Origin: Myxococcales bacterium
GTDB lineage: Bacteria > Myxococcota > Myxococcia > Myxococcales > JAKAPL01
DNA: 61,588 nt
Assembly (NCBI GenBank): GCA_021783235.1
Contig: JAJXUD010000021.1
Span: 1 to 61,588 of the forward strand
Direction of reading: 5' to 3'
The notes beneath the pieces were generated by a model. The model did no database searches. It saw nothing but the letters and a program-made list of their open reading frames with translations, and had not been told where the DNA came from. The position numbers and the translations under genes are program-made. Below are positions 26,219-36,691 of this stretch, in pieces. Numbering within the stretch: position 1 is the stretch's first letter; every line of letters starts with the position of its first letter.

Positions 26219-28276
26219 TCAGCCGACCGCGGCCGCGCCCCGCTCCTCGCGCCGACGCTCGCGCTCGCGCTCCTGGTAGCGGCGAATGCCGCAGGCGAGG
26301 ATCTCCCCGATGAGGTCGCGGTAGGAGAGGCCGCCCGCCTGGGCGATGAGGACGAGGTCGCTCCAGCCCGGCGTCAGCCCCGGAAGCGGATTGCACTCGA
26401 GGAAGTAGATCTTCCCCGCGGGATCCATGCGGAAATCGACGCGCGAGACGTCGCGGCAGCCGAGCGCCATGAAGACCCCTCGCGCCGCCCGCTCGATCTC
26501 CCGCTGCTGCGCGGCCTCGAGCTTCGCGGGCGCGTCGTAGCGGACGCGGTGGGTCCAGTCGAGCTTCGCCGAGAAGTCGTAGACGGGCGTCGGATCCTCC
26601 CCCGTGAAGACGACCTCCATGATGGGCAGCACCTTGGGCCGCCGCTCGCCCAGCATGCCCACCGTGAACTCGCGGCCGCCGATGTAGCTCTCGACGAGCG
26701 CCGGCTGCCGGTAGCGGGCCGCGAGCTCGCGGGCGAGCTCGCGCAGCTCGGGCTCGGTCTGGACGACCGACTTGCCGAAGACGCCCTTGGACGAGCCCTC
26801 GGCGACGGGCTTCACGATCACCGGGAAGCGTAGCTCCTTCGGCAGCCGCTCCTTGCCCGTCTGCATCAGGACGAAGTCGGGCGTCAGGATGCCGTGCTGG
26901 CGCACCATCTTCTTCGCGAGCGCCTTGTCGAGCGCGATCGAGAGCGCCGCCGGGTCGCTGCCGGTGTAGGGGATGTCGAGCAGCTCGAGAACCGCCGGCA
27001 CCTGCGCCTCGCGGTTTCTTCCCTTGAAGCCCTCTGCGATGTTGAAGACGAGATCCACCGGCGTGGCCGAGAGCCGCTGCGGCAGCTCGCTCGTCGCCTC
27101 GAGGTCCACCACCTCGTGGCCGTGGCTCGCGATGGCCTCGCGGATCGCCTGGAGCGTCTTCGGCGAATCGTACTCGGCCTCGGCGTCGCCCTCCCCCTCC
27201 CCGCTCGGCACGACGCGCTTCACGTTGAAGGAGAAACCGACGCGCAGGGGGCCGCTCTTGCGGGTGGGGCGGCTGCGCGGCGCCCGCGAGTCGCGCACCT
27301 TCCAGCGCGCCGCCGCCGAGGTGATGACCGCCTCGAGGACGCCGTCGAAGTGGATGCCCTCGAGCGCGGCCGCCGCGTAGATGCCGGCGCCCGGCTCCAG
27401 CGAGGGGAGCGCGTTGATCTCGAGGAAGTAGAGCTGCCCGTCGTCGCCGAGCCGAAAGTCGATGCGGCCGAGGTCACGGCAGCCGGTGGCGCGGAAGACG
27501 GCTCGCGCCGCCCGCGTCGCCTCGGCCTGGACGGCCTCGGGGATCTGCGCCGGCGCCTGCACCGAGACGGCCTCGCTGTGGAGTGTCTTCAGCGCGAAGT
27601 CGTAGATGGCGTGCCGGCCGCGGTGGGCCGGATCGACGAGGTACTCCACCGGCGCGAGCACGCCGCCGCGCTCCTTCGCGATCGCCTCGAGGAAGGGGAC
27701 GGTGAGGTCGCGCCCCAGGACGAACTCCTCGACGAGGAGCCCCGCCGGGTACTTCGCGAGCATCCCCTCCACCACGGCGCGCAGCCGCGCGGGATCCTCG
27801 ACGACCGAGTCCTGCGTGATGCCCTTGGAGGAGCCCTCGAAGTTCGGCTTGACGATGAGCGGAAAGCGGAGCGCGAGCCCCTCGAGCTGCGACGGCTCCT
27901 CGACGAAGCGCCAGCCTGGCGTCCGCACGCCGTGCTGCGCCACGACGAGCTTCGTGAGCTGCTTGTCGAGCGTCAGCGCGAGCGTGTACGGGTCGCTGCC
28001 GGTGTAGGGGATGCCGAGCTCCTCGAAGAGGCCCGGGTAGAAGGCCTCGCGGAAGCGGCCGCGCCGACCTTCGGCGGTATTGAAGACGAGGTCCGGGTTG
28101 TAGGCCTCGAGCCGCGCCACCGTGCGGGACGCAGGCCCCGAGACCTCGATCTTCTCGACGCGGTGGCCGAGCCGCTCGAGCGCCGCCGCGAGCGCGTCCA
28201 CGGTCATCGGCGTGTCGAACTCCGCCTCCTCTTCCGAGGTCGAGAGCTGGAGGTTATGGGAGAAGGCGATGCGCAT
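26219..28276 (-). CDS. Tandem D-Ala-D-Ala-ligase-like ATP-grasp protein
   Basis: 685 residues made of two full D-alanine-D-alanine-ligase-like units, about 1-330 and 344-685. Each has an N-terminal Rossmann half, the 'GIPYTGSDP' or 'DIPYTGSDP' turn, the ATP-grasp loop EGSSKG and the metal-binding end 'FLEINALPSL' or 'FLECNPLPGL'. Both copies keep the ATP and metal residues, so both may be active. Ordinary Ddl is a ~310-residue homodimer; this is a covalent double. The substrate may be D-Ala or another amino acid, for peptide or peptidoglycan-like ligation. It is 13 bases from the RDD gene, in the hemB operon. Confidence 0.9.
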   Translation of the reverse strand: MRIAFSHNLQLSTSEEEAEFDTPMTVDALAAALERLGHRVEKIEVSGPASRTVARLEAYNPDLVFNTAEGRRGRFREAFYPGLFEELGIPYTGSDPYTLALTLDKQLTKLVVAQHGVRTPGWRFVEEPSQLEGLALRFPLIVKPNFEGSSKGITQDSVVEDPARLRAVVEGMLAKYPAGLLVEEFVLGRDLTVPFLEAIAKERGGVLAPVEYLVDPAHRGRHAIYDFALKTLHSEAVSVQAPAQIPEAVQAEATRAARAVFRATGCRDLGRIDFRLGDDGQLYFLEINALPSLEPGAGIYAAAALEGIHFDGVLEAVITSAAARWKVRDSRAPRSRPTRKSGPLRVGFSFNVKRVVPSGEGEGDAEAEYDSPKTLQAIREAIASHGHEVVDLEATSELPQRLSATPVDLVFNIAEGFKGRNREAQVPAVLELLDIPYTGSDPAALSIALDKALAKKMVRQHGILTPDFVLMQTGKERLPKELRFPVIVKPVAEGSSKGVFGKSVVQTEPELRELARELAARYRQPALVESYIGGREFTVGMLGERRPKVLPIMEVVFTGEDPTPVYDFSAKLDWTHRVRYDAPAKLEAAQQREIERAARGVFMALGCRDVSRVDFRMDPAGKIYFLECNPLPGLTPGWSDLVLIAQAGGLSYRDLIGEILACGIRRYQERERERRREERGAAAVG

Positions 28277-29107: not shown

Positions 29108-30109
29108 CTACGAACCGACGAGCGCCTTCGCGGCTTCCAGCGCGAAGTAGGTGACGATGCCGTCGGCGCCGGCCCGCTGGATGGAGGTGAGGGACTCCAT
29201 CATGGCCCGCTGCCCGTCGAGGAACCCCGCCTGCGCCGCCGCCCGAACCATCGAGTACTCGCCCGACACGTTGTAGGCGAAGACGGGGACGTCCAGCCGG
29301 TCGCGCAGCTGCCTCACGACGTCGAGGTAGGCGATGGCGGGCTTCACCATGACCATGTCGGCGCCCTCGTCGAGGTCGAGCTCCACCTCGCGCAAGGCCT
29401 CGCGCGCGTTCGCCGGGTCCATCTGGTAGCCGCGCCGGTCGCCGCGGGCCGGCGCGTTGTGCGCCGCCTCGCGGAAGGGGCCGTAGAAGGCGGAGGCGTA
29501 CTTGACGGCGTAGGAGAGGATCGCGACGTGCGAGAAGCCGGCCTCGTCGAGACCGCGGCGGATGGCGCCGACGCGGCCGTCCATCATGTCCGAGGGGGCG
29601 ACGACGTCGGCGCCGGCGCGGGCGTGCGTGAGCGCCTGCTCGACGAGCAGCGGCAGCGTCGCGTCGTTCCGGACTTCGCCCTCGGGCGTGAGCACGCCGC
29701 AGTGGCCGTGGTCGGTGTAGTCGCAGAGGCAAACGTCGGTGACGACGGGGAGCTCCGGCGCGGCCTTGCGGATCGCCCGGATCGCCTGCGGCACGAGCCC
29801 CTCCGGGTCGCGCCCCGACGAGCCCGTCGCGTCCTTCTGCGTGGGGACGCCGAAGAGGAGGACGCCGCCGAGGCCGAGCGACGAAGCCTCGTGGGCCAGC
29901 TCGGCGCAGAGATCGGGCGACTGCCGGAAGATCCCCGGCATCGACTGAATCGGCTCGCGCACGCCGCTGCCCGGCACGCAGAACATCGGGTAGACGAGCC
30001 GCTCGGGGGCGAGGGTGTGCTCGCGGACGAGCCGCCGCAGCCCTTCGGTGCGCCGCAGCCGCCGCGGGCGAATCTGTGGGAACGAGCCCATCGCTGGGGC
30101 GCGGAGCAT
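29108..30109 (-). CDS. hemB: Delta-aminolevulinic acid dehydratase (porphobilinogen synthase)
   Basis: Condenses two 5-aminolevulinate molecules into porphobilinogen, the second common step of heme synthesis. The zinc site [14 protein letters not shown] has the three-cysteine form of metal-dependent enzymes. The Schiff-base lysine is in MVKPA, with '[14 protein letters not shown]' and 'YNVSGEY' also present. Length about 333 residues; ATG at 30109 or 30091. It leads the hemB, DUF4177, RDD, ligase-like operon, an unusual company. Confidence 0.97.
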
Positions 30110-30175: not shown

Positions 30176-30376
30176 GTGCTCGTCCGCTTGAACGGCGAGC
30201 CGCGCGAGGTTCCAGCGGGCTGGTCGCTCGCGCGGCTGATCGAGGATCTCGGGCTCGCCCAGGCGAGGCTCGCGGTGGAGCGCAACCGCGAGATCGTTCC
30301 CAAGGCCGAGCGCGCCCTCACGGCGCTCTGCGAGGGCGACGTGATCGAGGTCGTCACGTTCGTGGGCGGGGGCTGA
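30176..30376 (+). CDS. thiS: Sulfur carrier protein ThiS
   Basis: 66 residues with the ubiquitin-like beta-grasp pattern: '[20 protein letters not shown]' near the start and a C-terminal '..VVTFVGGG' tail whose terminal glycines are normally adenylated and thiocarboxylated. It donates sulfur for the thiazole ring of thiamine. GTG start at 30176. thiG begins 9 bases after its stop. The activating ThiF is not in this window. Confidence 0.9.
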
Positions 30377-30385
30377 AGGAGAACC

Positions 30386-31186
30386 ATGTCCGAGCGCTTC
30401 GCAGAGGCCGTCCCCGAAGCCGAAATGCTCACGCTCGCCGGGCGAAGCTTTCGCTCCCGGCTGCTCGTCGGCACCGGCAAGTACCCCGACTTCCCGACGA
30501 TGAGGCAGGCGATCGAGGCCTCGGGGGCCGAGATCGTCACCGTCGCGGTCCGCCGGCTCGACCTGAAGGCCACGGGCGATCGGTCGCTCCTCCACTGGCT
30601 GCCCCAGGGCAGCACGCTCTTGCCGAACACGGCCGGCTGCCAGACCGCCGACGAGGCGATTCGCACCTGTCGCCTCGCCCGCGAGCTCGGCATGAGCGAC
30701 CTCGTCAAGCTCGAGGTGATCGGCGATCCGAGGACGCTCTTCCCCGACACCGCCGAGCTCCTCGCCGCGGCGAAGACGCTCGTGAAGGAGGGCTTCGTGG
30801 TCCTGCCGTACACCACCGACGATCCGGTGGTGGCGAAGCGGCTCGAGGACGTCGGCTGCGCGGCCATCATGCCGCTCGGGGCCCCCATCGGCAGCGGGCT
30901 CGGCCTGCAGAACCGGGTCAACCTCGAGATTCTCCTCGAGACCGTGAAGGTTCCGGTGCTGGTCGACGCGGGCGTCGGCACGGCGTCCGACTGCGCGGTC
31001 GCGATGGAGCTCGGCTGCGCGGGGGTCCTCCTGAACAGCGCCATCGCCGGGGCGCGAGAGCCCGTGCGCATGGCGCGGGCGATGCGGCTCGCGGTCGAGG
31101 CGGGGCGCGACGCCTTCCTCGCGGGCCGCATGCCCCGCCGCCTCCACGCGAGCGCATCGAGCCCGCCCGTCGGGCTCGTCGCCTAG
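30386..31186 (+). CDS. thiG: Thiazole synthase ThiG
   Basis: 266 residues. It forms the thiazole phosphate moiety of thiamine from DXP, dehydroglycine and ThiS-bound sulfur. The (beta/alpha)8 barrel shows '[11 protein letters not shown]', 'LPNTAGC.TADEA', 'VKLEVIGD' and '[11 protein letters not shown]', with '[13 protein letters not shown]' near the C-terminus. AAGGAG precedes the ATG. Part of thiSGE. Confidence 0.97.
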
Positions 31187-31189
31187 CGC

Positions 31190-31837
31190 TTGTTCGAGCT
31201 GCTCCTCGTCACCGATCGGCGCGAGGCCGCGCTGCCGCTGCCGGCCGCGGTCGAGGCCGCGCTCTCCGCCGTGCCTCCCGGCGCCGCGGCGGTGCAGCTG
31301 CGCGAGAAGGATCTCGGCGGCGGCGCGCTCGCCGAGTTCGGCCGCGCCCTCCTGCCCCTCTGCCGGGCCCGCGAGGCGCCGCTCCTCGTGAACGACCGCA
31401 TCGACCTCGCGCTCGCGCTCGGCCTCGACGGCGTCCATCTGGCGCACAGCTCGGTCGCGCCTGCCGAGGCGCGGCGGCTGCTCGGTCCTGCGCGGCTCGT
31501 CGGCGTCTCCTGCCACTCCGAGGCGGACGTCCGCGAGGCTACCGGCTGGGCCAGCTACGCGACGTTCGGCCCCGTCTTCGAGACGCCATCCAAGCGAGCC
31601 TTCGGCCCGCCGCTCGGCCCCGCCGCGCTCGCCCGCGCGGCCCGCCTCGGGCTGCCGCTCTTCGCGCTCGGGGGCGTCGGGCCAGAGACCGCCGAACTGC
31701 TCGAGGCCGCCGCCGGAGTCGCCGCCATCCGCGCGGCGCTCGGGGGCGCGGATCCCGCGGGGGCCTGCGCCGCTCTCTACGCCGCCTGGAGCCGCGGGCG
31801 CGCTCGGGCTCAGCGCCCGAGTTCGAGCGGGACGTAG
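31190..31837 (+). CDS. thiE: Thiamine-phosphate synthase
   Basis: 215 residues, TTG start 3 bases after thiG. It couples HMP-PP with thiazole phosphate to give thiamine phosphate. Motifs are 'LLLVTDR' (first strand), 'VQLREKD' for diphosphate binding, 'LLVNDRIDLALALGLDGVHL' and 'YATFGPVFETPSK'. The last 28 bases overlap the end of the convergent secreted-protein gene. With thiS and thiG it covers the thiazole branch and coupling; thiC/thiD are not in view. Confidence 0.93.
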   Translation: MFELLLVTDRREAALPLPAAVEAALSAVPPGAAAVQLREKDLGGGALAEFGRALLPLCRAREAPLLVNDRIDLALALGLDGVHLAHSSVAPAEARRLLGPARLVGVSCHSEADVREATGWASYATFGPVFETPSKRAFGPPLGPAALARAARLGLPLFALGGVGPETAELLEAAAGVAAIRAALGGADPAGACAALYAAWSRGRARAQRPSSSGT

Positions 31838-32697
31838 AGAAGCGCGTCGCCCGTCGTCGGCAGACTCGTGGCGGCGACCTCGCGGCTCAGGCAGGCGGCG
31901 AGTCGCGGATCCTCCGTGGTGTCCATCGCGACCTGGACGTCGTGCGCCCCGCTCTTTCCAGCGACCGAGAGGATGACGGCGCCGGAGGCCTCGGGATCGC
32001 GGTCGAGCGCCTCGGCGTAACAGCGCCGGAGGGCCGCGTCCGTCTCGAGCCTCGAGGCGAGCCCGGCCTGGTCGACGCCGCCCGAGGCCACGACCGCCGG
32101 CAACACCTTGAGGGTCGGCGCCCCGCCCGGCGGGCGAGGCTCCCAGTCGCCCGCGCCCGGGAGCGCCAGCTTGCCTCCCTCGGCCACGAACGCGAGCTCC
32201 CCCGGCTGGGCGCCGAGCGAAAAGGCATGGGCCATGGGGTCGCCGGCGCAGCTCCCGCTCGGCCGGAACCGCACGAGCAGGGCGCCGTCGCCCGAGGCGG
32301 CGGCCCGAACCACGCGACGCGCCTGCTCGGGCGTCGCCCGAAGCGCGAAGCCCGATCCGTCGCCGTCGCCCGCCGGGTAGATGGCGAGCGCCCCGCCGAT
32401 CGCTCCTAGCGCGAAGCGGTCGTCGATCCGCAGCGACTCGTTCTCGGCGTCGTACGAGCGGAAGTGGAGCTGCCGGCCCGGGACTCGCAGCTCGTAGCTC
32501 CGATCGAGGGCCCTCCGTCGTCGCTCGGGACGCGCCGCCGCTTCGTCTGCCCGTGCCACGGGATCCGAAGAGACGTCCCCACCGCCACGCGCGAGCGCCC
32601 GACAGAGGGCCTCGACCTCCGCCGGCGTGGTCAACGCCGCCGGCCCCTTCCCCGCCGCCGCCAAGCCCAATGCCACCGCCACGCTCAAGCCGAGCAT
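31810..32697 (-). CDS. Secreted hypothetical protein with AgmX/PglI-like C-terminal region
   Basis: 295 residues; a weak signal (LGLSVAVALGLAAAG) suggests export. The C-terminal ~90 residues ('VVASGGVDQAGLASRL.T...LRRCYAEAL', 'GAVILSVAGKSGAHDVQV' and 'LAACLSREVA') resemble the TonB-like AgmX/PglI C-terminal family seen in myxobacterial motility and other envelope proteins. The central part has no known fold. Assignment is by recollection of the pattern and is tentative. Confidence 0.6.
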   Translation of the reverse strand: MLGLSVAVALGLAAAGKGPAALTTPAEVEALCRALARGGGDVSSDPVARADEAAARPERRRRALDRSYELRVPGRQLHFRSYDAENESLRIDDRFALGAIGGALAIYPAGDGDGSGFALRATPEQARRVVRAAASGDGALLVRFRPSGSCAGDPMAHAFSLGAQPGELAFVAEGGKLALPGAGDWEPRPPGGAPTLKVLPAVVASGGVDQAGLASRLETDAALRRCYAEALDRDPEASGAVILSVAGKSGAHDVQVAMDTTEDPRLAACLSREVAATSLPTTGDALLYVPLELGR

Positions 32698-32764
32698 CCC
32701 GTCCCCCGCCGAAGCCCCGTGCGGAACAGTAGGGAGCGGATCGAACGGGCGTAAGGGGAGCAGG

Positions 32765-32806
32765 GAGGCTCTCGCCCCCGCGGGGGGCGCCCGCCCGGCG
32801 AGCCTC
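32765..32806 (-). terminator. Hairpin after the sigma-54 regulator gene
   Basis: GAGGCTCTCGCC (32765-32776) pairs with GGCGAGCCTC (32797-32806), allowing one bulge. A perfect CCCCCGCGGGGG palindrome sits inside the loop. The hairpin directly follows the stop codon (32807-32809) of the minus-strand regulator. Confidence 0.5.
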
Positions 32807-34158
<1,352 letters not shown>

Positions 34159-34162
<4 letters not shown>

Positions 34163-35202
34163 GCGGGCCTCCCGGGCAGGACGACGCAGAACCTCGCGCC
34201 ACGCTCGGAGGACTCGTGACGCAGCTCGCCGCCGTGGCCCCGCGCGATCCGGCGGGCGATGGCGAGCCCGAGCCCCGAGCCGCCGCCCCCAGACCGGAAC
34301 GGCTCGAAGAGCGTCGGCAGAAGCTCCCCCGGCACGCCGGGGCCGTCGTCCTCGAGCGCGATCTCGACGAGCTGGTTCGCATGGCTGAAGCGGACCGTCA
34401 CCCGGGCCTCGGCCCCCGCATGCCGGACGGCGTTCTCGAGCAGGTTGCGGAAGAGCTCGCGGAGCAGCGTCGGGTTGCCCTGCACCGCGCCCGGCGTGCC
34501 CTCGACGCGGGCGGAGAAGCCCGGCACGCCGAGGCTCACCCGCACCTGCTCCTCGGCGTCGCGCAGCGCCCCCTCGAGCAGGACCCGCTCTCGCGGCTCC
34601 GGGACGTGCCCTGCCCTCGCGACCTGCAGGTGGGCGTCGAGCACCGAGGAGGCGCGGCGAAGCGCCAGCTCGGCGCGCTCGAGGGCCGCGACGGCCCCGG
34701 GAGCGCCGGCGGCCCGAGCCAGCGCCTCGTCGAGCTGCAGCGCCAGCTCGTGGAGCGGCGCCCTCACCTCGTGGGCGACCGCCGCCGCGAAGCGGAGGAG
34801 CTCGGCGTTCCGCTCCTCGACCTCCGCGCGGAGACCGCGGAGCCGCAGCTGCGCGCGGATGCGCGCGAGGAGCTCGGCTGGGTCGAATGGCTTCGTCACG
34901 TAATCGTCGGCGCCGAGCTCGAGGCCGGCCAGCTTCTCGCCCATCTGCGACCGGGCGGTGAGGAGGATCACCGGAAGCCGGGAGGTCGACTGGCGGGAGC
35001 GGAGCTCGCGGAGGACGGCGAGGCCGTCCACCTTCGGGATCATGACGTCGAGGAGCACGAGCGAGATCCCCGGCGAATCGGCGACGCGGAGCGCCTCCTC
35101 GGCGTCGGCGGCGCTCTGGGTCGCGAGCCCCGCGAGATCGAGCTGCTCGGCCAGCATGACCCGCATCCGCGGGTCGTCGTCGACGATGAGGACGGTGTCC
35201 AT
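34159..35202 (-). CDS. Hybrid receiver-histidine kinase
   Basis: 347 residues, soluble. The receiver (1-120) has D52 (LDVMIP) and K104 (YVTKPFD). A HisKA-like region with AHEVRAPL (H144) and an HATPase_c domain (NLLENAVRH, GPGVPGELLP, GSGLGLAIARRI) follow. It ends 4 bases inside the NtrC-type gene. It is divergent from the membrane kinase at 35249, with only 46 bases between, so the two operons share a promoter region. Confidence 0.9.
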
Positions 35203-35248
35203 GGGAGACGCCGCGACATGCTACCATGCCGCCGCCTTGGCCTTCAGG

Positions 35249-36691
35249 ATGACCCTCACCGCGAAGCTCGGCCTGGCCTTCGCCTCGCTCGCCGCGGTCG
35301 CCGGCCTGCCCGGCCTTTTGCTCCTCGGCGGCGTCTCCCGGCTGCAACGTCAGACCCACCGCTCGCTCGCGGAGCTGGCGAGCCGGGACGCCTGCCAGCA
35401 CGCGCGCGCCACGGCCGTCGCCGCCGTGGCGGCCCTCCGCAGCCACGCGCTCTTTCCGAAGGACCCGCGCTTCACCCAGTCGGCCCGCGCGAGCGTGGCC
35501 GCGGCCGAGGAGGCGGTGCGTGCCGCCGCGCTGGCGCTCCCGGCGGCAGAGGGCGTGGCGCTCCAGGCGGAGGCGGGTACGCTCGCCTCGTCGGCGGAGG
35601 CCTTCCTCGGCGCCGCTGCGATCGGGCCGCCCCCCTCACCCGACCCGGCGCGGGTGGCCGGGGATGCCCTCGTCGCGCACCTCGACCGGCTCGTCGCGGC
35701 CGACAACGAGAACCTGGGCCGGCGCGGCCAGCTCGTGGCGGAGACCATCGATCGGCTCGCCGTGGTGGGCGAGGCCGGCCTCGTCGCCACGGTCCTCGCG
35801 GCGCTGGCGCTCTCGCTCGCCATCGGGCGCGCCTGGGGGCGGCGCATGGCCACGATCCGCAGCGGGGTGGAGCTGGTCGCCTCCGGGGACCTGCGCGTCC
35901 GGATCGACGATCGCGAGAGCGACGAGGTCGGAACGCTGGCGAGGACGGTCAACCGGATGGTCGGCGAGCTCCAAATCCTCGAGGAGATGAAGAGTCAGTT
36001 CGTCGCGGTGGCCTCGCACGAGCTGCGGACGCCGCTGACCCTCATCGAGGGCTACTGCGGCATCCTCCTCAACCCGGCCAAGGGGCCCGTCTCCGACTGG
36101 CACCGGCAGCGGATCGAGCGAATCCACGAGCAGGTCGTCGAGCTGCTCTCGCTGCTGCAAGATCTGCTCGACGCCGAGCGGCTGCAGACGCGGGCCCTCG
36201 ACCCGGTCCTCGAGCCGCTCGATCCCGAGGCCTGGGCCCGCGGGATCGTCGGCGGCTTCGACGGCGCCGCGCGGGCGAAGGAGATCGCGCTGCGCCTCGC
36301 CGTGGCGCCGTCGACGCCGCGGACGGGCCTCGCCGACGTCCGCGCCCTCACCCGCGTCCTGCGAAACCTGGTCGACAACGCCCTCAAGTACACCGAGTCG
36401 GGCGCGGTGGAGATCTCGCTCTCGGGGCGCCCCGACGCGCTCGAGCTCTCGGTCGAAGACAGCGGGCTCGGCATCCCCGCCGAGGAGCTGCCGCGAATCT
36501 TCGGCCGCTTCTACCAGGTCCACGACGGCCGCACGCGGCGCGGCTTCGGCCTCGGCCTCTCCATCGTCCGGGGGCTCGTCGAGCGCAACGGCGGGACGGT
36601 GCAGGCGCGGAGCGAGGTCGGCAAGGGCTCCACCTTTTCGGTGGTCTGGCCGCTGCGCTCGGGGCCTCTCGAGCAGAGGCAGGCAGGATGA
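35249..36691 (+). CDS. Membrane sensor histidine kinase with HAMP domain (GlrK-like)
   Basis: 480 residues. Two membrane helices (8-28 and 172-193) bracket a ~140-residue Ala-rich, probably four-helix sensor domain. A HAMP domain (about 194-245) is followed by HisKA (ASHELRTPL, H257) and HATPase_c (NLVDNALKYTE, DSGLGIP, GFGLGLSIVRGL). The next gene, a lipoprotein, overlaps by 4 bases. A kinase followed by a lipoprotein, beside a sigma-54 regulator, recalls glrK-qseG-glrR of enterobacteria. Partnership is inferred. Confidence 0.9.
   Translation: MTLTAKLGLAFASLAAVAGLPGLLLLGGVSRLQRQTHRSLAELASRDACQHARATAVAAVAALRSHALFPKDPRFTQSARASVAAAEEAVRAAALALPAAEGVALQAEAGTLASSAEAFLGAAAIGPPPSPDPARVAGDALVAHLDRLVAADNENLGRRGQLVAETIDRLAVVGEAGLVATVLAALALSLAIGRAWGRRMATIRSGVELVASGDLRVRIDDRESDEVGTLARTVNRMVGELQILEEMKSQFVAVASHELRTPLTLIEGYCGILLNPAKGPVSDWHRQRIERIHEQVVELLSLLQDLLDAERLQTRALDPVLEPLDPEAWARGIVGGFDGAARAKEIALRLAVAPSTPRTGLADVRALTRVLRNLVDNALKYTESGAVEISLSGRPDALELSVEDSGLGIPAEELPRIFGRFYQVHDGRTRRGFGLGLSIVRGLVERNGGTVQARSEVGKGSTFSVVWPLRSGPLEQRQAG

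Follow-up and report, generated by a model that had tools for sequence, protein, structure and literature searches.

What does a bacterium make with two units resembling D-Ala-D-Ala ligase (Ddl) that are joined in one polypeptide? The question is raised by a gene in a 61,588-nucleotide stretch of DNA of a Myxococcales bacterium (contig JAJXUD010000021.1), which is here called the window. An initial annotation had proposed that such a protein might act as a fixed dimer or join two substrates in sequence. We examined the anatomy, ancestry, active sites and genetic partners of the tandem protein (Table 1).

Table 1. Coordinates of the tandem ligase, its parts and its neighbours in the window
Feature	Position	Strand	Remarks
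Tandem Ddl-like (ATP-grasp) ligase	26219..28276	-	685 aa plus stop; MXAN_4097 ortholog
N half	27287..28276	-	residues 1-330
Inter-half linker	27263..27286	-	~residues 332-340 modelled at low confidence
C half	26222..27262	-	residues 339-685
S58 (P1/DmpA-type) N-terminal-nucleophile aminopeptidase	24595..~26043	-	start TTG 26043, ATG 26028 or later
RDD-family membrane protein	28290..~28838	-	MXAN_4098-like by position; neighbour only in Myxococcia
hemB, porphobilinogen synthase	29108..30091	-	neighbour only in Myxococcia

Two ligase units of separate ancestry

The reading frame runs on the minus strand from an ATG at 28276 to a final codon ending at 26222, followed by a stop at 26219-26221; the plus strand across 26219-28276 holds no single open frame. 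The initial annotation had placed two Ddl-like units in one polypeptide at 26219-28276 without giving a strand. The frame is present and the composition was borne out: the single 685-aa protein gave two matches to PF07478 and two to the NCBIfam Ddl models, and, as had been noted, each half carries one EGSSKG motif (residues 147-152 and 493-498) and one FLE(I/C)N motif (FLEIN, residues 284-288; FLECN, residues 625-629). Identity is 40% between the two halves and 27-29% between either half and E. coli DdlB. Full-length or near-full-length relatives (40-86% identity) were found in well over 150 genomes, which rules out an assembly artefact as the source of the tandem.

Across the phylum, a tandem or a large part of one is present in 132 of 195 genomes, and most Myxococcia examined have it at ~70% identity. 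Matches to the tandem, mostly over the full length, were also obtained in 35 of the 291 genomes from the phylum to which a Bdellovibrionales genome belongs, and it is present in a further group as well.

The window protein is an ortholog of an already noted family, whose name probably comes from the 2009 amidoligase survey by Iyer and colleagues. Two Ddl-type ATP-grasp units in a chain of ~680 aa and full-length orthology (~69% identity) identify it as an MXAN_4097-type tandem. MXAN_4097 of Myxococcus xanthus has been described as having two tandem DDL C-terminal domains, and disrupting it by insertion did not obviously impair growth, morphology or S-motility; the principal ddl of that organism is probably MXAN_5601 (PMC9108774). 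An 'MXAN_4097-like amidoligase' has also been named in a lichen Nostoc (PMC5987646). The MXAN_4097 papers that we found do not describe linkage to an S58 peptidase, the site signatures or the repeated N-half loss, and we found no account of the S58 linkage or of the family's catalytic activity in the open-licence literature. New here are S58, not hemB, as the conserved partner, the N half as an old separate lineage that was repeatedly lost or decayed, and the hint of beta-amino acids given by lysine-2,3-aminomutase-like genes that adjoin related ligases.

The initial annotation had suggested comparing the halves phylogenetically, and they proved to be separate lineages: in our careful tree, the N halves fall into one clade (100/100) that excludes the C halves, which disfavours a recent internal duplication. 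Nested inside the tandem C halves are seven natural single-domain C genes (L161-L167), all of which adjoin S58. A single origin of these solo C genes was rejected (p-AU 8.7e-7), and the tree forces at least four separate changes; a search with the N half of ten solo-C genomes and near relatives turned up no gene that outscored the solo C gene. The N half thus goes back to an old lineage of its own and was lost on at least four occasions, leaving the C half by itself beside S58.

Even where fused, the N half has lost metal or catalytic residues at L148/L149 (changed metal ligands), L156, L158, L176, L177 and L191, and is partly decayed at L157, L150 and L192. No comparable decay was seen among C halves, whose few odd residues are single changes or belong to cut sequences. 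Of the 83 tandems having an N half less than 65% identical to that of the window, 69 are more strongly conserved in the C half. The genomes of L156-L158, L176, L177 and L191 mostly have no S58 of this type; solo C genomes retain S58.

Active sites of the two halves

For the residue survey, N and C halves, 127 of each, were aligned with DdlB. In the window, K105, K143, E147, S149, S150, E183, K230, R271, D273, E286 and N288 are intact in the N half, as are K451, K489, E493, S495, S496, E529, K571, R612, D614, E627 and N629 in the C half. Both halves therefore possess the Ddl ATP/Mg and catalytic residues (K97, K144, E180, K215, R255, D257, E270 and N272), in agreement with the earlier judgement that neither is decayed, and share the fold, ATP/Mg site, EGSS loop and R255/D257/E270/N272 equivalents with DdlB and DdlA (PF07478). 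Equivalents of K97, K144, E180, R255, D257 and N272 are kept in at least 121 of 127 N halves and at least 126 of 127 C halves. Conservation in nearly all copies rules out one half being dead in all relatives, the outcome against which the initial annotation had set its reading; in several lineages, however, the N half is decayed or absent, which it had not foreseen. By these residues, the two halves appear to be active, both in the window protein and in the majority of relatives.

Apart from having two units per chain, the tandem differs from DdlB and DdlA at H63, Y216, S281 and L282, which we take to be substrate-side residues. Neither half has the canonical set of these residues or the HGxxGEDG motif, S281 alone being present in the C half. 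The HGxxGED-type motif is replaced by AEGxxGRxRE, with GRxRE in place of GED and, at the H63 position, Glu in almost every copy of either half; the omega-loop Lys is retained and Tyr216 is replaced. The window N half has E69 (H63), D190 (E187), S292 (G276), A297 (S281) and G298 (L282), reflecting a family-wide D187/S276/A281/G282 signature in which Asp and Ser are fixed, Ala is found in most copies and the last position is mostly Gly. The window C half has E415 (H63), G633 (G276), S639 (S281) and D640 (L282), within an E187/G276/S281/D282 signature whose Asp at the L282 position is almost invariant. Because these acceptor-side residues are replaced, and differently fixed in each half, we expect neither half to act as a D-Ala-D-Ala ligase; the tandem is probably no such enzyme, and its two sites probably act differently.

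The S58 peptidase and other neighbours

On the minus strand, the genes follow the order hemB, RDD gene, tandem, S58. The peptidase gave a full-length match to PF03576 and has a Gly-Ser autocleavage site, with cleavage predicted between G284 and S285 (numbered from TTG 26043). Like DmpA, BapA and PH0078, the S58 proteins beside the tandem have this site, the oxyanion Asn and the Ser-x-Glu, which are invariant (109/109). PH0078 (2drh) is the nearest solved structure to the window S58 (327 bits); BapA, a beta-peptidyl aminopeptidase, scores 231 bits, behind PH0078, 5tzb and DmpA. The region of DmpA Y146 is invariantly ECDDS in these proteins, and their specificity therefore probably differs.

The initial annotation had counted a P1-type peptidase among the operon members; its position was confirmed, and it turned out to be a widely conserved partner, lying downstream of the tandem on the same strand at 112 of the 116 loci that hold both. 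In several distant genomes the two genes are separated by a few bases or overlap. A consensus scan found no promoter or terminator between them, a result that is uninformative at this G+C. Among the 195 genomes of the phylum, 128 have tandem and S58, 4 the tandem only, 9 S58 only and 54 neither (Fisher p ~1e-33, a value uncorrected for kinship, so that related genomes overstate independence). All four tandem-only genomes are at most 86% complete, and several genera are without both genes while sister genera have both. In G008, the tandem is accompanied in the genome only by a distant S58. Since searches of several tandem-bearing genomes found no S58 of this type, the peptidase is not obligatory. 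Outside Myxococcia, S58 is the only recurrent ligase-specific neighbour, and no specific third conserved neighbour was found there.

The initial annotation had also placed hemB in the operon. Both hemB and the peptidase lie where it stated, but it missed the RDD gene between hemB and the tandem, and a functional partnership with hemB was rejected, its linkage being confined to Myxococcia; hemB is probably no functional part of the system. The order hemB, RDD-type gene, tandem also occurs in Myxococcus loci; unlike there, no sglS separates hemB from the RDD gene in the window. Further upstream, a divergent plus-strand cluster (window ~30300-31837) encodes a small ThiS-like protein and a ThiG-like protein (both by eye) and a ThiE-like protein that matches the thiE model just below its cut-off. 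Positions 32685-36691 hold a dense sensor kinase/response regulator cluster, one member of which is an NtrC-like regulator bearing the motifs GESGVGKE and GAFTGA (by eye).

What the tandem and S58 may make

We hold at about an even chance that the tandem makes a small peptide as a carboxylate-amine ligase with two sites, and that the bond formed by the C half, or a precursor, is cleaved by S58. Fused in the protein would be two Ddl-like ATP-grasp ligases that diverged long ago, each of which would activate a carboxylate with ATP as an acyl-phosphate and then join it to an amine. The C half would be the core enzyme, forming an amide that is turned over or trimmed by the S58 aminopeptidase encoded downstream, and the N half would contribute a second, lineage-dependent ligation. 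Tandem and S58 would thereby make and recycle a small non-ribosomal peptide, possibly including a beta- or other non-standard amino acid, that is dispensable in laboratory growth. The picture of C half plus S58 as the core is incomplete, since decayed N halves occur mostly in genomes without S58, yet solo C genes keep it. A precedent for two ATP-grasp halves in one chain catalysing different phosphorylation steps is the large subunit of carbamoyl phosphate synthetase. Its likeness to the tandem is at the level of fold (Foldseek, 12-13% identity, rmsd >24 Å across both halves), and no glutaminase partner was seen at the tandem.

The fusion could instead merely stabilise a Ddl dimer, giving a fixed pseudo-homodimer with one reaction. 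Ddl enzymes are homodimers, and the halves are nearly equal in length and fold: AlphaFold2 returned two confident Ddl folds (mean pLDDT 87), and the best Foldseek matches of the model are Ddl structures. The mutual placement of the halves in the model is unreliable (pTM 0.51), and the inter-half geometry was not used. Two different reactions fit the distinct fixed acceptor-site signature of each half better than a symmetric dimer does, and natural single C halves exist, which makes the pseudo-homodimer improbable. Of the two modes initially proposed, sequential joining with a matched peptidase is accordingly the better supported, by signatures and S58 linkage, though without the part assigned to hemB. 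We also consider it quite unlikely that the tandem is a supplementary peptidoglycan enzyme that forms D-Ala-D-Ala (or D-Ala-D-X), and S58 a D-aminopeptidase that trims or recycles stem-peptide ends, in the manner of VanA and VanX. The Ddl fold and overall catalytic set of both halves would suit such a role, two of the nearest PDB S58 chains carry the name D-aminopeptidase, and Van systems likewise place a Ddl-like ligase beside a peptidase. VanX, however, is a metallo-dipeptidase, the tandem falls far short of the cut-offs of the Van ligase models, and the ligase residues differ. The H63, Y216, S281 and L282 positions are replaced in the tandem, whereas the same genome has a separate single-domain Ddl with the canonical signature at all four; the tandem is therefore probably not the housekeeping Ddl. 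Within ~5 kb either side of this canonical gene, we found no convincing MurC, FtsQ or FtsA match. The conserved neighbours of the tandem outside Myxococcia are not cell-wall genes. A cell-wall function was assumed for the MXAN_4097-like enzyme in PMC5987646, but in PMC9108774 insertion into MXAN_4097 left morphology and growth without obvious defect, and the role of main ddl is assigned to MXAN_5601.

A special case of the favoured two-site ligase is a beta-amino-acid peptide pathway, in which the C and N sites would ligate a beta-amino acid, for example beta-lysine, while S58 would be a beta-peptidyl aminopeptidase. Its unfused form would be an operon of aminomutase, C-like ligase and second ligase. 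In a sister clade (L168-L173, L194-L197 and L118), the C-like ligases are single and often have beside them another Ddl-like ligase, of W216/A281/G282 signature. This second ligase has A281/G282 in common with the N half and groups weakly with it (92/54, careful tree); the AU test did not distinguish the branching orders of the halves relative to the aminomutase-linked clade of solo C-like ligases (p-AU 0.25). A lysine-2,3-aminomutase-like gene adjoins related ligases at L172, L194, L195 and L196. At L172, L194 and L196 it forms an operon-like row with a C-like ligase and a second Ddl-type ligase, a row resembling an unfused counterpart of the tandem; the second ligase was not seen at L195. 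On a Thioflavicoccus plasmid (L199), a related ligase is accompanied by diaminobutyrate, diaminopropionate and aminomutase-like genes, and the five aminomutase-like genes at L172-L199 retain the YLYQCD motif. At L078 and L151, which are tandem loci, the upstream aminomutase-like gene is a more distant one and is divergently oriented. A third Ddl-like gene, of the W216 type, lies near the tandem at L148, L149 and L114.

These linkages and the membership of BapA in family S58 lend weak support to the beta-amino-acid idea of the initial annotation. Against it, aminomutase-like genes occur in 30 of 30 Myxococcia searched, tandem-bearing or not, elsewhere in the genome; no S58 was found in either the L078 or the L151 genome; the grouping of N half and second ligase is weak; and BapA and DmpA are farther from the window S58 than PH0078 is. 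The window genome itself has two such genes (G000:C6:161656-162753 and G000:C47:55248-56399), and in relatives such as G013 the two copies are divergent neighbours, with or without a tandem. For the window, the aminomutase linkage is only a hint of unusual amino acids, and we regard the beta-amino-acid pathway as unlikely. Doubtful, too, is the fuller proposal of a two-gene system in Myxococcota and some Bdellovibrionota that would build a beta-lysine-type peptide by two successive different ligations, with S58 as dedicated hydrolase and the fusion derived from an aminomutase-ligase-ligase operon.

The tandem and S58 pair probably makes and degrades a small peptide rather than building cell wall. 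The annotation 'D-alanine-D-alanine ligase' is misleading for the tandem, and tandem genes annotated ddl should not count as cell-wall ligases; the S58 link and the lone C halves turn their function into a testable metabolite question.
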